In this document: positions 1,207-27,422 of the stretch, one piece after another
Layout of the letters: each line of letters begins with the position of its first letter
How positions within the stretch are numbered: the stretch's first letter is position 1
Origin: Fibrobacter succinogenes
GTDB taxonomy: Bacteria > Fibrobacterota > Fibrobacteria > Fibrobacterales > Fibrobacteraceae
Assembly (NCBI GenBank): GCA_902762795.1
Contig: CACWPM010000021.1
Coordinates: 1 to 64,000 of the forward strand
Length of the DNA: 64,000 nucleotides
Direction of reading: 5' to 3'
Translations under genes and position numbers: made by a program
The notes under the pieces: model-generated
Databases searched by the model: none
What the model saw: only the letters and a program-made list of their open reading frames with translations
What the model was told of the DNA's origin: nothing

Positions 1207-1278
1207 GCACTTTCACATCGCTCAAGTGCTAACTGCTCGGCTCAGTCATACCCAACTACGTTGGATGCGACTCTCGCC
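1206..1278 (-). repeat. Family F two-hairpin element, copy 1
   Basis: Read on the minus strand it has the shared block GGCGAGAGTCGC, then hairpin 1 (ATCCAAC / GTTGGGT, loop GTA), the shared block ATGACTGAGCC, hairpin 2 (GCACTT / AAGTGC) and the tail GCAAAA. Copies at 5557-5636, 14433-14513 and 26440-26511 keep the blocks but have different paired stems. It sits in the 3' region of thrH just before the terminator. Confidence 0.6.
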
Positions 1279-1298
1279 TAATGCAGTTGTCGTCTGTC

Positions 1299-1916
1299 TT
1301 ATAGCGAATCCTGGAACTTGTGGAATTTGTCCAAAAGTTCAGCGTAGGTCTTTGTAGCTTCGAGCTGCGGGAACTGGGCCACAATGGAATCCGGTGCGCA
1401 GAAGAAGCAGCCTTTGTCGGCCTGCTTGAGCATTCCCGTGTCGTTGAAAGAATCGCCTGAGGCAAACACCTTGAAATTGAGTTCTTGCAAGTGTTTCACG
1501 ACCTTTGTTTTTTGGTCGCTCATACGCAAGTGGTAACCCTTGATCATGTCGTTTTCGACCACGAGGTTATGGCAGAAGATGGTCGGAAAGCCGAGGTTTT
1601 TCATGATGGGGTAGGCAAATTCCTGGAACGTATCCGAGAGGATGATCACCTGAGCTTCGTCGCGGAGCGTGTCCATGAAGTCGCGGGCGCCGTCGAGGAG
1701 TCCGAGGTTCGCAATCACGTTCTGGATGTCAGAGAGCTTGATGTTTTCGCGTTCGAGGATTTTGATGCGTCCCTTCATGAGCACGTCGTAGTCGGGAATG
1801 TCTCGGGTCGTGAGACGGAGGTCCTTGATGCCTGTCTTTTCGGCGACGGCAATCCAGATTTCGGGAGCGAGGACACCTTCAAGGTCCAGGGTAACGACAC
1901 ATTGCTTAGTAAACAT
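1299..1916 (-). CDS. thrH: ThrH-type phosphoserine phosphatase / homoserine phosphotransferase
   Basis: HAD-superfamily enzyme of 205 residues, the usual length for ThrH. In Pseudomonas ThrH dephosphorylates phosphoserine and can pass the phosphate to homoserine, linking serine and threonine synthesis in the cytoplasm. Motif I is LDLEGVLAPE with nucleophile Asp11 and Glu13 in the position that is Asp in most HADs, a hallmark of ThrH. Motif II is ILSDT near residue 95 and motif III/IV is the GDSFNDT block near residue 153; TTRDIPDYDVLMKGR is also typical. It lies downstream of hslO in the same direction with a family E repeat in the gap, so the two may share a transcript. Confidence in the family is high. 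Confidence 0.9.
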   Translation of the reverse strand: MFTKQCVVTLDLEGVLAPEIWIAVAEKTGIKDLRLTTRDIPDYDVLMKGRIKILERENIKLSDIQNVIANLGLLDGARDFMDTLRDEAQVIILSDTFQEFAYPIMKNLGFPTIFCHNLVVENDMIKGYHLRMSDQKTKVVKHLQELNFKVFASGDSFNDTGMLKQADKGCFFCAPDSIVAQFPQLEATKTYAELLDKFHKFQDSL

Positions 1917-3889: not shown

Positions 3890-4100
3890 TATAGGTTTTA
3901 GGGGTTAGGAACGTCGTTCTGAGGGTTTCGGGGCCATCCCGGACTTGCGATGCACCGCCTGCACTGAGTTCAATCGAAATGAGCCTGTCGAGGTGTTCTG
4001 CGATTTTCTTACGCGGATCTCTTTGCAGATGCGATTCTTTTTGCTATCTGCTGTCTACAGCCTACTTCCTACTGCCTACTGCGCCTTTGGCGCTATCCTA
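3890..4100. repeat. Degenerate repeat block between the DJ-1 family gene and sufB (E-like)
   Basis: It opens with TTATAGGTTTTAGGGG and closes with CAGCCTACTTCCTACTGCC, the same word style as family E arms, with palindromic-repeat debris between (for example GCCATCCCGGAC and a CTGTCGAGG stretch). The right end reaches the sufB stop codon at 4093. The arms pair only partly, so it is probably a decayed or composite element. No coding content is seen in 3849-4092. Confidence 0.4.
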
Positions 4101-5508
4101 CGCTGTGTTCGAGCTTGAGGGTGAGTAGTTGGCGGGCTTCGGTGGCAAATTCGCCCGGGAGTTCCTTGAACACGTCCTTGCAGAAACCGCCCACCATCGC
4201 TTGTATGGCGTCTTCGCGCTTGATGCCGCGGCTCTCGAAGTAGAACAGCTGGTCTTCGCTGATGCGGCTGGTCGTAGCTTCGTGCTCGGTTTGGGCGCTT
4301 GCGTTTGCGACGGTGATGTAGGGGAACGTGTGTGCGGCGCTCTTGGTACCGACGAGCATGCTGTCGCACTGGGTGTAGTTGCGGGCGCCTGTAGCGGACT
4401 TGCGGATGCTCACTTCGCCACGGTAGGCGTTGCTGGAGCAGTCAGCACTGATGCCCTTTGAGATAATCGTACTCTTGGTGTTCTTGCCGATGTGGATCAT
4501 CTTCGTGCCGGTGTCAGCCTGCATGTGGCCGTTCGTGAGAGCCACGCTGTAGAATTCACCGACGGAATTGTCGCCCTGCAAGATGCAGCTCGGGTACTTC
4601 CACGTGATGGCGGAACCCGTTTCGACCTGCGTCCAGCTGATGCGGCTGTTCTTGCCTGCGCACTTGCCACGCTTCGTGACGAAGTTGTACACGCCGCCTG
4701 CGCCTGTTTCTCGGTCGCCTGCATACCAGTTTTGGACTGTCGAATATTTAATGCTGGCGTTGTCCTTTGCCACCAGTTCCACGATGGCGCTGTGCAACTG
4801 CTTGCTCGAAAATTCCGGAGCGGTACAGCCTTCGAGGTAGCTCACGCTCGCATCGTCATCGGCGATAATCAGCGTGCGTTCAAACTGGCCTGCTTCCTTG
4901 TTGTTGATGCGGAAGTAGGTGGAAAGGTCCATCGGGCACTTGACTCCAGGCGGAATATAGACGAAACTACCATCGCCAAAGACTGCACTGTTGAGGGCCG
5001 CAAAGTAGTTGTCGCCAGCCGGGACTACGCTACCGAGATATTCTTCGATGAGTTCTGGGTATTCCTTGATGGCATCGCTGATAGAGCAGAAGATGATGCC
5101 CATTTCCATGAGCTTCTTCTTGTGGCTTGTGTAAATGCTGACGGAATCGAACACGGCATCGACGGCGACGTTCGCGAGTCGCTTCTGTTCGTCGAGCGGG
5201 ATGCCGAGCTTTTCAAAAGTCGCCAAGAGTTCCGGGTCCACGTCTTCGATCTTTTCGTGGCTCTTCTTGGTCTTCGGTGCGGAGTAATAGACGATGTCTT
5301 GCAAATCGACGGGATTGAAGTGGAGCTCGCCCCAGTTGGGCTGTTCCATCGTCTTGAGCTTTTCGTAAGCCTTCAAGCGGAAATCGAGCATGAACTGCGG
5401 TTCGCCACGGAGCGCTGACGCCCTGCGGATGATATCCTCGTTAAGACCTTTTTCGAAGGCTTCGTTTTCAATATCAGTGACAAATCCGTATTTGTAATTT
5501 TCGCTCAT
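4093..5508 (-). CDS. sufB: Fe-S cluster assembly scaffold protein SufB
   Basis: SufB is the core of the cytoplasmic SufBCD scaffold that builds iron-sulfur clusters. The protein has 471 residues, the usual size, and is SufB-like along its whole length: N-terminal [16 protein letters not shown], the beta-helix region ([20 protein letters not shown]), the conserved block [18 protein letters not shown], and the C-terminal [10 protein letters not shown]. Its usual partners sufC and sufD are not beside it: both flanks are repeat-rich intergenic DNA, so it is transcribed alone. The stop codon lies at the edge of a repeat block. Identity is very secure; isolation from the suf operon is the only odd point. 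Confidence 0.95.
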
Positions 5509-5556
5509 CTTATACCCGTATTAACCGCGCATTTTCCGCGCACAAATATAGCTTAA

Positions 5557-5636
5557 GGCGAGAGTCGCGACAATCAATCGCTAGATTGAATTGTCATGAC
5601 CGAGCCGTGCTGTATGCACTCTTCAGGAGTGCAAAG
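5557..5636 (+). repeat. Family F two-hairpin element, copy 3
   Basis: Blocks GGCGAGAGTCGC (5557-5568) and ATGACCGAGCC match copy 1. Hairpin 1 is 11 bp with one bulge (GACAATCAATC at 5569-5579 with GATTGAATTGTC at 5584-5595, loop GCTA). Hairpin 2 is GCACTC (5616-5621) with GAGTGC (5627-5632), followed by AAAG. This copy is on the plus strand, about 50 bp upstream of the sufB start and pointing away from it, so it is not a sufB leader. Confidence 0.6.
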
Positions 5637-5689: not shown

Positions 5690-5970
5690 CTATAGATGTG
5701 GTAGGTTTTGTTTTGCTGTCATCCTAGCGTCATTGTCATCGGATTTATTTCGGGATCACCATATTCCCTTAGCATCGTCATCCTGAACGCGAAGCGTGAA
5801 GGATTCAGTGACAGAACTTATTGCCTTTGTCATCCCGGACACTGTTCCGGGATCACCTTCTTGTCATAGATGTTCGTGCATGACTCGGCGACTCAGCCAT
5901 GTCAGTCAGCGAGCTGTCTGATGCGGCATTCGTCTTGTTTGTCATTCCCGGCTCCGACCGGGAATCTCCC
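5690..5970. repeat. Cluster of short palindromic intergenic repeats
   Basis: This otherwise empty 400-bp stretch holds several short repeats in a row. One is GTCATCCTGAAC...GAAGGATTC at 5777-5806, one is GTCATCCCGGAC...CCGGGATCAC at 5829-5856, and one is GTCATTCCCGGC...GGGAATCTCC at 5941-5969. The same classes occur inside topB and the aminotransferase gene. No ORF with coding character is seen. Confidence 0.6.
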
Positions 5971-13368: not shown

Positions 13369-13728
13369 TTAAAACAAACCGACTAAAAATTCGAAAAAAT
13401 GTTTTATATAGTAGATGATTTCAAATACGAACAAGATTAACCTAAACAAGGCTAATGGCAAAATTGGAACAACTCCGATTGCAGCAAAAATCATCCATAC
13501 CTTTCTTTGGACAATCTCTATTTTCAACGAAAACAAATCAAGCAACAACAAAACAGCCGAAGCCAACGTCATTAAAGGGAATAACAAATATACAATGTCA
13601 TCCGACCAAAAGCTATAGGTCCTTTTTATCAAGGCTGCCGGCGTATAATGAACGGTCAAGCACGCCACAGAAATAAACGCAGTCAAGGTAAAGAACTTAT
13701 CTATCAATTTCTTAATCAATTGGACCAC
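13369..13728 (-). CDS. Small integral membrane protein, unknown
   Basis: A 119-residue hydrophobic protein with about three predicted membrane segments (FFTLTAFISVACLTV, IVYLLFPLMTLASAVLLLL, MIFAAIGVVPILPLALFRL). It starts with GTG inside the last codons of the upstream gene (overlap 13716-13728), so the two are translationally coupled. No family recognised; AT-rich compared with housekeeping neighbours, consistent with accessory DNA. Confidence 0.6.
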   Translation of the reverse strand: MVQLIKKLIDKFFTLTAFISVACLTVHYTPAALIKRTYSFWSDDIVYLLFPLMTLASAVLLLLDLFSLKIEIVQRKVWMIFAAIGVVPILPLALFRLILFVFEIIYYIKHFFEFLVGLF

Positions 13729-14270
13729 CTCATAAAACAGCGTGCCGTGCTAATTCCACGATTGAGATATTCTTTCTGGATTACAATTTTATCGCTGAAC
13801 GGGCTTGGCTTTATTGTAAAGCCATCTAATGGTTCAGTATCATAAATAATTATGATAGAATCTTGCCTGTCATCAATCCCAATACCCGTCCCCTGAACAA
13901 CGGCCCCAATACCTCTACGAGGTTCAAACCGATATGTTAAAATATCTTTCTTAACGTTATCTTTGTCCTGATACTTAAGGCGCCAAAAATAATCAGCCCA
14001 AGAATCAACAAAAAAATTATACCAAAAGGATTTGTTCTGATACTCTTGTTCTAGAAAAAGCTTCTTGCCATCCAATTCGCACTGCTTTAGATTTTTATCT
14101 CCATATTCATAAATAGGATAAGTTTCCCCTTCTTGGGGATAAGGATTATAACACGTGTGAATAAAAGACAAATATGAAAGGAAAACTATGGTAAAGGCTA
14201 TTTTGGCCCACAAATCATTCTTTTTTAAAAATTGAACCGCTTGAGAGACTTTTGTTTTAATTATTTGCAT
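13716..14270 (-). CDS. Membrane-anchored hypothetical protein
   Basis: Starting at the ATG at 14270 (MQIIKTKVSQAVQF) it has 184 residues: a short cytoplasmic tip, one membrane segment (IAFTIVFLSYLSFIHTC) and a periplasmic or outer domain with no motif I recognise (WADYFWRLKYQDKD, GIGAVVQGTGIGIDDRQDS). An upstream in-frame ATG at 14357 adds 29 residues and is less likely because it gives a long uncharacteristic leader. It overlaps the small membrane protein gene downstream; together they look like a two-gene accessory unit. Confidence 0.55.
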   Translation of the reverse strand: MQIIKTKVSQAVQFLKKNDLWAKIAFTIVFLSYLSFIHTCYNPYPQEGETYPIYEYGDKNLKQCELDGKKLFLEQEYQNKSFWYNFFVDSWADYFWRLKYQDKDNVKKDILTYRFEPRRGIGAVVQGTGIGIDDRQDSIIIIYDTEPLDGFTIKPSPFSDKIVIQKEYLNRGISTARCFMRWSN

Positions 14271-14432
14271 ACAACAGATAGAATATACAAAATCTAGGTT
14301 GATTTCGTGTGATATCACATTGATTGGGCTTGACAGAACCGTTACTTTAGAGTGCATTTGTGAATATGAGTAACGAAATTGACCAACTGGGAAATGCTTC
14401 TAAACGTTTGCTATAGTTGACAAAATGAACGA

Positions 14433-14513
14433 TTTTGCAAGCGGTTGATTGTAGAACAACCAATCGCCTCAGTCATGACAACTTTTGCAAGCAACGTTGT
14501 CGCGACTCTCGGC
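14433..14513 (-). repeat. Family F two-hairpin element, copy 4
   Basis: Minus strand: GCCGAGAGTCGC, hairpin 1 (GACAAC / GTTGTC), ATGACTGAGG, a possible hairpin 2 (GATTG / CAATC) and TGCAAAA. Its left end on the plus strand abuts the remnant of an Rpn-family gene beginning about 14514. The spacing of hairpin 1 is wider than in other copies. Confidence 0.5.
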
Positions 14514-15053
14514 TTGAAGTTGTTTGCAAAATTTGCAAAGATTCCGCAGCTTGTCAAGTACTGGTTTCAGATTATGTTTCGCAACCAGAAGAACATCCCG
14601 ACAGTAGCTATCGTTTTGTAGAACGGAAAAGATCCTTATCGCATCGAAAAAGAAGTCATGTTTCCGAATTATCCCGAATATTATCACAAGATTGGGTTGC
14701 CGTTCCTGCTAGAAATTGTCGATGTTGGCGATATTTTTGAGGATGAAGAAATTCCACTTATTTTGCCCAAAATTGCACTCGCATTGGTCGCCTTGAAGTA
14801 TGTTTTTAACGGAGAAAAACTTAAAAAACATCTGAAAGCGGCTATGGCGGGACTCACATCGCTCCCCCGCGAAGTTTATGGCTACAAGTCTATCGCCGAA
14901 ATCGAAGAAGAAGAACTTGAAACCAAGATTAAAGATACCAAGCTCGAAATGGTCGATGCCATGCTCGCCAACAATAAATTAACTGACGAAGAAATCGCCA
15001 TTATTTCTGGCATTCCGCTAGACGAAATCCAAAAGCGTAGAGCACAACGTTAA
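14514..15053 (+). pseudogene. Remnant of an Rpn/YhgA-like transposase-family gene
   Basis: The frame reads [19 protein letters not shown], then IPTVAIVL, a TAG stop at 14616-14618, then [20 protein letters not shown]. In this family the interrupted spot is normally L-Y-x-G, so TAG probably replaces a Tyr codon. The 5' half of the gene (nuclease core) is missing where family F copy 4 begins. From an ATG at 14658 the 131-residue 3' part is intact and ends in a helical tail ([20 protein letters not shown]) typical of Rpn C-termini. The family assignment rests on the tail and the L(Y)NGK..P block and is moderate. Confidence 0.6.
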
Positions 15054-26439: not shown

Positions 26440-26511
26440 GGACTTTCGCTTTGCTCCAGTCCCAACTGATTGGCTCGGTTATGCCCAACTTCGTTGGGCG
26501 CAACTCTTGTC
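26440..26511 (-). repeat. Family F two-hairpin element, copy 2
   Basis: Minus strand: GACAAGAGTTGC, hairpin 1 (GCCCAAC / GTTGGGC, loop GAA), ATAACCGAGCC, hairpin 2 (GGACT / AGTCC). It begins at the stop codon of the glycosyltransferase gene (26511-26513). Compared with copy 1, the outermost pair of hairpin 1 and the second pair of hairpin 2 have both changed with pairing kept. Confidence 0.65.
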
Positions 26512-27422
26512 TACTTTTTGTCTTCGATGTACAGCGGGCGCTGCTTGACTTCGTCGTAGATTCGACCGATGTATTCGCCGAGAATGCCGATGGTCAAAAG
26601 CTGCACTCCTGCGAAGAACACGATGGCGGTCATGAGCGATGCCCAGCCAGGAACCGTAGTAGCAGGAGAGAGGAACTTTTCGAGAATTGACCAAACGAGT
26701 AGCGCGAAACCGACGATTGTCGCGAGAAAGCCCATGTAGAAGCTAATCTTGAGCGGCGCCGAGCTGAAGCCCGTGATACCGTCGAAGGCGAGGCGCAACA
26801 TCTTCTTGAGCGGATACTTCGAAGTACCTGCGGTGCGTTCGGCGCGATCGTACTTGACGCCAATCTTCTTGAAGCCGACCCAGCATACGAGTCCGCGCAA
26901 GAAGCGGCTGCGTTCCGGAAGGTTCTTGAGCTGGTCCACCACGCAGCGGTCCATGAGTCTGAAGTCGCCGGTGTCTGGCGGAATATCGATGCTTGTAAGT
27001 TTGCCAATTAAACGGTAGAAGCAGAATGCCGTGAAGCGCTTGAAGAGCGTCTCGCCTTTGCGCTTGTTGCGTTGGGCGTAAACGACCTGATAGCCTTCGC
27101 GCCACTTTTTGAGCATTTCGTGGATGAGGCTCGGCGGGTCTTGCAAGTCGCCATCGATAATGACTACTGCATCGCCCGTGCAATGGTCGAGGCCTGCGCT
27201 GAATGCAGCCTGGTGTCCGAAGTTGCGACTGAAATTGATAATCTTGTTGTTCGGGTTTCCGGGGAGGAGACCTTCCACGATTTCGCGGGTGCGATCCTTG
27301 GAACCGTCGTTGACAAATATGAGCTCGTGCTCGATGTCCTTGAGTTCTTCTTCGAGAACGCGGTAAGTCTCAGCAACGATTTCTTCTTCATTAAAGACTG
27401 GTATAATTACGGATAAAAGCAT
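26511..27422 (-). CDS. Family 2 glycosyltransferase (GtrB/DPM-like), membrane-anchored
   Basis: A 303-residue enzyme that likely moves a sugar from a nucleotide donor to undecaprenyl phosphate at the cytoplasmic face. The GT-A domain starts LSVIIPVFNEEEIVAETYRV and has FVNDGSKDRTREIV, the metal-binding DGDLQDPPSLI and GDFRLMDRCV. Two C-terminal membrane helices (about residues 230-285) give the typical GtrB/PglD-like topology. It follows the GT39-like gene in the same direction across a family E repeat. The neighbouring polyprenol-sugar-dependent transferase makes a donor/user pair plausible. Sugar specificity is unknown. Confidence 0.88.
   Translation of the reverse strand: MLLSVIIPVFNEEEIVAETYRVLEEELKDIEHELIFVNDGSKDRTREIVEGLLPGNPNNKIINFSRNFGHQAAFSAGLDHCTGDAVVIIDGDLQDPPSLIHEMLKKWREGYQVVYAQRNKRKGETLFKRFTAFCFYRLIGKLTSIDIPPDTGDFRLMDRCVVDQLKNLPERSRFLRGLVCWVGFKKIGVKYDRAERTAGTSKYPLKKMLRLAFDGITGFSSAPLKISFYMGFLATIVGFALLVWSILEKFLSPATTVPGWASLMTAIVFFAGVQLLTIGILGEYIGRIYDEVKQRPLYIEDKK

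Follow-up and report, generated by a model that had tools for sequence, protein, structure and literature searches.

Element copies in the window

Copies of a short element with two hairpins are dispersed across the window, i.e. the whole 64,000-nucleotide stretch of DNA analysed here. Copy 1, a full two-stem-loop unit of type A (1207–1289, minus strand), lies between the 3' end of a gene for a HAD-type hydrolase (1299–1916, minus strand) and a terminator-like hairpin; its outer stem (CAACTGC/GCAGTT) is followed by the core and then by hairpin 1 (model match 1237–1280), with hairpin 2, GCACTTgagcgatgtgAAAGTGC, at 1207–1229 on the minus strand. Copy 2, a full unit of 87 bases (5546–5632, plus strand), is located upstream of sufB (4093–5508, minus strand) and has an outer stem (ATATAGC/GCTGTAT), the core, an 11-bp hairpin 1 and hairpin 2, GCACTCttcagGAGTGC. 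It is flanked by a direct repeat of CAA (5543–5545, plus strand, and 5632–5634). The 5' core strand of this copy, GAGAGTCGC (5560–5568, plus strand), consists of the GA that forms G.A pairs, a G, a bulged A, the helix strand GTC and the invariant GC, while the 3' core strand, ATGACCGAG (5596–5604, plus strand), consists of the invariant AT, the helix strand GAC, a pyrimidine (Y), the G.A-forming GA and a G.

Copy 3 (14436–14526, minus strand) comprises a core (model match 14464–14515) and a 3' hairpin, and lies beside a putative gene remnant, the interval 13716–14357, for which a Pfam search returned no match. Copy 4 (26440–26510, minus strand) has lost the 5' arm of its outer stem and begins right behind the stop codon of the gene for a family-2 glycosyltransferase (26511–27422, minus strand); its core helix carries a C-to-T/G-to-A double change (GTTGC..ATAAC). 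These four copies had been described in a first-pass annotation, and the coordinates, strands and stems given there were all reproduced, with covariance-model E-values of 2e-13 to 5e-11 for copies that were themselves part of the model-building set. The same annotation put the unit at 80 nt; its two hairpins stand, but its 5' boundary was set too short, since the outer stem encloses hairpin 1 and the true unit is longer on that side. An additional copy, copy 5 (5880–5945, minus strand; model match 5888–5936), lies outside the model-building set and was detected at 33.8 bits (E 9e-7). It has a stem-loop 1 with outer stem ATGAC/GTCAT and core GCCGC..CATGGC, and its sequence was also seen in genomes G060 and G082.

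Family size and detection

The genome from which the window derives (3.93 Mb in 89 contigs; the own genome hereafter) was searched with the pattern AGAGTYGCN{10,38}ATRACYGAG, which gave 37 matches, versus 0 for the reversed pattern, and with covariance model R1, built from 31 copies, which matched approximately 125 copies (E below 0.01). Compensatory change in the stems, as proposed from the initial four copies, proved to be strong among the 122 distinct own-genome copies: 15 of the 16 modelled pairs vary on both sides, and 444 double-change cells were observed, as against 132 ± 9 in shuffles. Ninety per cent of cells are paired, a value that falls to 26–37% if the partner columns are offset by one to three positions. 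The absence of a match to a known RNA class was upheld at two thresholds, with 0 matches in the window for Rfam 15 at the gathering threshold, and nothing convincing on the element when ten loci were searched at a relaxed E-value.

A tandem array of seven copies with a period of 78–81 bases is present at a contig end (G000:C15:102724-103251; locus L038), and is followed by copies of opposite orientation. Tandem arrays of this kind could be mistaken for CRISPRs, 29 of which have been reported as annotated in F. succinogenes S85 (PMC4852346). No published description of the element family in Fibrobacter was found in the literature searched, and the main text of the S85 genome paper does not mention the element (PMC3079729).

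Conserved architecture

The element is approximately 70–100 bases in length and is composed of two abutting stem-loops, the first comprising an outer stem, a fixed core and an inner hairpin, with the second following directly. The stems are exchanged almost freely around a small constant core. From the outside in, the core has C-GA-G facing Y-GA-G, in which both GA steps are nearly invariant, indicating tandem G.A pairs; a single-base bulge that may be A, T or C but is never G; a 3-bp helix that is freely exchanged (GTC/GAC, GTT/AAC, GCT/AGC, GAA/TTC, ACA/TGT or GAT/ATC); and, innermost, a nearly invariant GC facing AT. The inner hairpin has some 6 to 11 pairs, the second of which is often G.A (29) or A.G (27) and never pyrimidine–pyrimidine, and its commonest loop is CTTG. 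A kink-turn was considered for the core and rejected: the tandem G.A pairs fit but the 3-base bulge does not, whereas the single-bulge pairing accommodates all variants. Comparison with self-cleaving ribozyme cores, conducted by eye, gave no match.

A perfect outer stem of at least 6 bp is found in 68 of 144 copies, compared with 9 expected from mismatched partners and a maximum of 20 in 1000 permutations, and these 68 stems represent 44 different sequences. The second hairpin reaches at least 5 bp in 103 of 144 copies (38 expected by shuffling); frequent versions of it are closed by a C(GNA)G or C(AAA)G triloop or take the form NNGA-GC-GAA-GC-GANN. Several sub-types exist that are distinct in outer stem and second hairpin. 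Three successive copies, with core variants GAGTGTCGC and GAGAGTCGC, were seen at ~450–640 of a Fibrobacteraceae contig (L066).

Insertion polymorphism

Related genomes differ in the presence of individual copies. The copy 2 insert, of 89 bases, is present in G114, G128 and G082, whereas G060, G064 and G106 have an uninterrupted empty site, GTGCAA^AGATAG, within GTGCAAAGATAG; the copy is absent also from G117 and G130, where the flank is slightly altered. At the copy 1 locus, beside the same neighbouring gene, the own genome carries the type A unit, G064 an 85-base unit of type B, G063 an oppositely oriented element and G060 a short gap, while the locus is empty in G114 and G130 (a site of the type GTAGGA^AGTCGG). 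A 72-base in-frame insert in the own-genome CobA/HemD gene, at the site GTCGGA^AGTAGG, is absent from G064 and G130, and a 79-base unit is absent from G106. Copy 4 is likewise absent from G106, a sister genome, with a border that is not clean.

The inserted unit in these comparisons corresponds to the two stem-loops, with lengths of 72, 79, 85 and 89 bases, and the flanking repeat is A in two cases, CAA in one and as long as GAGTGCAAA in another (1, 1, 3 and at most 9 bases). Sequence upstream of the element is near-random until an A at position −14 (115 of 145 copies), one base before the outer stem. The direction of gain or loss was assigned by eye using parsimony as opposed to a dated tree. 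Imprecise empty sites, such as those of copy 4 and of the SNF2 gene in G060 and G106, suggest that part of the polymorphism may be due to deletion. The SNF2 sites of the latter genomes (LKGLDDNAASQ) were rejected as clean empty sites, as the first bases of the element are retained and they may be deletions; for SNF2, the pre-insertion heptamer arrays of other species are the better comparison. The element family is very probably mobile.

Units of type A were also observed within (AGACGAG)n heptamer arrays, and units of type B within (GTAGGAA)n arrays (L254, L284, L405), such that the two repeat systems seem linked as target and guest.

Copies within genes

Five own-genome copies are embedded in long open frames that show coding signal to either side of the copy, all in the sense orientation and with the frames remaining open. 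The host genes encode an FeoB C-terminal region, an SNF2 helicase, an FAD-dependent protein, CobA/HemD and a protein without a Pfam match; G106 has two more intragenic copies. Orthologues of the invaded genes that lack the insert exist. The SNF2 insert is situated between the SNF2 domain (201–487) and the Helicase_C domain (542–655), and in relatives this linker holds either a different element sub-type or other repeat families. As a consequence of such in-frame inserts, peptides encoded by the element form part of some annotated Fibrobacter proteins. Use of a single reading frame by intragenic copies was considered and rejected: it is true of the five own-genome copies (5' half) but is broken by the type D copies that other species carry in SNF2.

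The other in-frame repeat families, present in the CobA/HemD (L254–L283) and SNF2 (L284–L313) linkers of different species, include heptamer arrays of GACGAGA, translated as RETRDER, GTCATCCTGAGCGAAG..GGATCC (VILSEVRSTKSKD), and the VIPAQAGI and VIASEQSERGN types. Elsewhere in the own genome, two identical element copies flank a gene of 1041 amino acids (L207:1656-4781) with repeated DSRDGQxYKTVKIGxQxWMAENLNY modules that resemble the Fibrobacter major paralogous domain.

Distribution

All 79 other genomes of the genus that were searched have copies, as do five other genera of the family. No copies were found in the 12 searched genomes of genus g4 or in the other families of the phylum tested. 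A pattern scan of GTDB genomes gave further matches in termite-gut Oscillospiraceae, Treponema, one Bacillota, one Clostridiales and one Peregrinibacteria record, and these have the same core and paired hairpin at 2–13 copies per genome. Most of the remaining matches in other phyla are without a good hairpin and look like chance. A stricter pattern applied to IMG/VR viral contigs found no copies. Copies from the termite-gut Oscillospiraceae and their relatives have TATAAT(C/G), a −10-like sequence, as the 5' arm of their outer stem (L434, L443, L449, L453, L456, L459, L435, L446, L451), and these copies might therefore carry or create promoters.

Folding as DNA or RNA

The first-pass annotation left the choice between a structured RNA and a hairpin-processed mobile repeat. 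The second of these is favoured by the empty sites, in-frame inserts, tandem arrays and random orientation, while the first is weakened by the pattern of mismatches and the lack of a sense-strand bias. Relative to the 5' neighbouring gene, 63 copies have the same and 58 the opposite orientation (P = 0.7; genes predicted by a simple coding score), and relative to GC skew in 1.2 Mb of sister genome G106 the count is 16 to 14. Mismatches in paired columns, with the fixed G.T left out, comprise 47 G.T and 46 A.C, whereas tRNA stems of the same genomes have 26 G.T and 0 A.C, a biased control, given that G.U pairs are allowed by the gene finder. Since selection at the RNA level should favour G.U, the parity of G.T and A.C suggests that the hairpin matters as DNA, and folding at the DNA level is considered probable. 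Exceptions are confined to the core, where pairs 8-96 and 10-95 have 18 G.T and 0 A.C, and pair 14-92 is a near-invariant G.T. These could mark positions contacted by a binding protein or reflect residual function as RNA.

A structured RNA that has spread by duplication and acts as RNA, either as a 3'-UTR or leader element or as a small RNA (stabilising an mRNA or offering a protein a binding site, for instance), would also explain the exceptions. Consistent with this, covariation is very strong and the internal loops are fixed, two core pairs are G.T-only and an invariant G.T stands beside C.A, some copies follow stop codons directly on the sense strand, and CTTG loops, common here, are stable in RNA as well. 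However, it sits poorly with the overall equality of G.T and A.C, with the absence of strand preference towards genes and the occurrence of copies in convergent, divergent and codirectional gaps alike, and with sister species that differ in presence at one and the same gene; an RNA acting in this manner seems unlikely. The idea that the copies are chance-alike terminators or unrelated intergenic hairpins can practically be dismissed. A/T-rich sequence does follow hairpin 2 in some copies, and copy 1 adjoins its terminator-like hairpin, but the insertions are discrete, and the empty sites, the reversed-pattern control (37 versus 0) and the excess of double changes (444 versus 132) already refute it.

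Mode of movement

A further question concerns the mobilising enzyme. Movement of a REP-type element by a RAYT or IS200-family HUH transposase would be in keeping with small palindromes that have bulges and G.A mismatches, are genic as well as intergenic and number many per genome, and with GTAG just 5' of 20 of the 145 copies. Most copies lack this tag, however, and the near-complete genomes G060, G062, G063 and G067 have no Y1_Tnp match, yet hold 12–36 elements among the matches listed; additionally, close element pairs enclose no transposase gene, and 30 copies in G106 show no replication-strand bias. Such a transposase is accordingly judged improbable as the mobiliser. Even less credence is given to a retroelement route, in which insertion follows reverse transcription of a two-hairpin RNA that carries a short A tail: units do end in A or AA after stem-loop 2, but a reverse transcriptase domain is found in only 18 of the 80 genomes of the genus, none was detected in G000, G060 and G106, which hold many copies, there is no strand bias and G.T is not favoured. 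Both Y1_Tnp and RVT_1 were rejected as candidates, as the distribution of the element does not track either, and the mobiliser is neither a resident IS200-type transposase nor a reverse transcriptase. Neither a mobilising enzyme nor an autonomous copy was found between close element pairs, where the genes are ordinary-looking (Smr-like, macro-domain-like, rpsP and acyltransferase-like, named by eye).

The preferred reading, with a probability of roughly 0.8, is that of a small non-autonomous mobile family whose two-stem-loop unit is inserted whole and is recognised via one folded DNA strand. The working form would be folded single-stranded DNA, with a protein binding to the core; cleavage would presumably take place at the foot of stem-loop 1 and behind stem-loop 2, and the unit would then be joined after an A, giving rise to a flanking repeat of 1–3 bases. 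A bolder version, in which an unrecognised enzyme reads the folded tandem-G.A/bulge core of a single-stranded DNA element and inserts the exact unit after an A, is offered tentatively and is, taken as a whole, doubtful. If true, the family would span several phyla and remodel proteins by in-frame insertion.

Gene-invading palindromic repeats have so far been described mainly from Rickettsia, which lends the Fibrobacter family its importance. Some members of the genus are in culture, each genome holds on the order of a hundred copies, numerous species pairs can be compared that differ at one site, and neither a resident Y1 transposase nor a reverse transcriptase is there to account for the movement; together these features render the mechanism testable, with the fixed core as a defined candidate binding site.

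Comparison with known repeat families

The Rickettsia palindromic elements (RPE; Ogata et al. 2000, as described in PMC2229807 and PMC10969869) are likewise small mobile stem-loop repeats with many copies, several sub-families and no known transposase, located both intergenically and in frame inside conserved protein genes, as is the case here. The Fibrobacter inserts of 72–89 bases fall short of the RPE length of 105–146 bp (PMC2229807), and the unit as a whole measures 70–100 bases against 105–150. Unlike RPE, the Fibrobacter element has a fixed tandem-G.A/bulged-base core and two abutting stem-loops, and its hosts are Fibrobacteraceae and gut bacteria of other phyla as opposed to Rickettsia. 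The two are not known to be related in sequence.

Like the element, GTAG and CGTC REPs are palindromic, show compensatory changes in their stems, now and then have an unpaired GA or a bulge of 1 base, and occur between genes and at times within them; the CGTC type, too, has no dedicated transposase (PMC3733652). The survey describing them does not mention Fibrobacter, and reports a GTAG at the base of the palindrome for >90% of GTAG members and, for the CGTC type, CGTC at one end, a stem of 8–9 bp, a loop of 4–5 bases and a CCA-like tail (PMC3733652). Here, GTAG was found within 16 bases upstream of 20 of 145 copies and several near-complete bearers have no Y1_Tnp, in contrast to the tag and the associated Y1 transposase of GTAG REPs; CGTC occurs in 5 and GACG in 18 of 145 copies, with stem and loop sizes that differ from those of CGTC REPs. 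The Fibrobacter unit is also two to three times longer than REPs, and its internal core is fixed. R boxes like those of integron attC sites (RYYYAAC/GTTRRRY) lack conservation and are confined to a subset of type A stems (GCCCAAC/GTTGGGC).

A MITE of the DDE-transposase kind was discounted: the terminal inverted repeats and fixed-length target duplication of such elements are lacking because the outer stem closes stem-loop 1 only and not the unit ends, and because the flanking repeats vary in length. Miniature elements derived from IS200/IS605 (PATE type) have strand-specific bulged hairpins and little or no target duplication. The Fibrobacter element shares both features, but several bearers lack a Y1 gene, there is no fixed tetranucleotide target beyond an A and the G106 copies have no bias to one replication strand. 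The family is thus a mobile palindromic one, similar in operation to Rickettsia palindromic elements or REPs while falling outside the definition of either.
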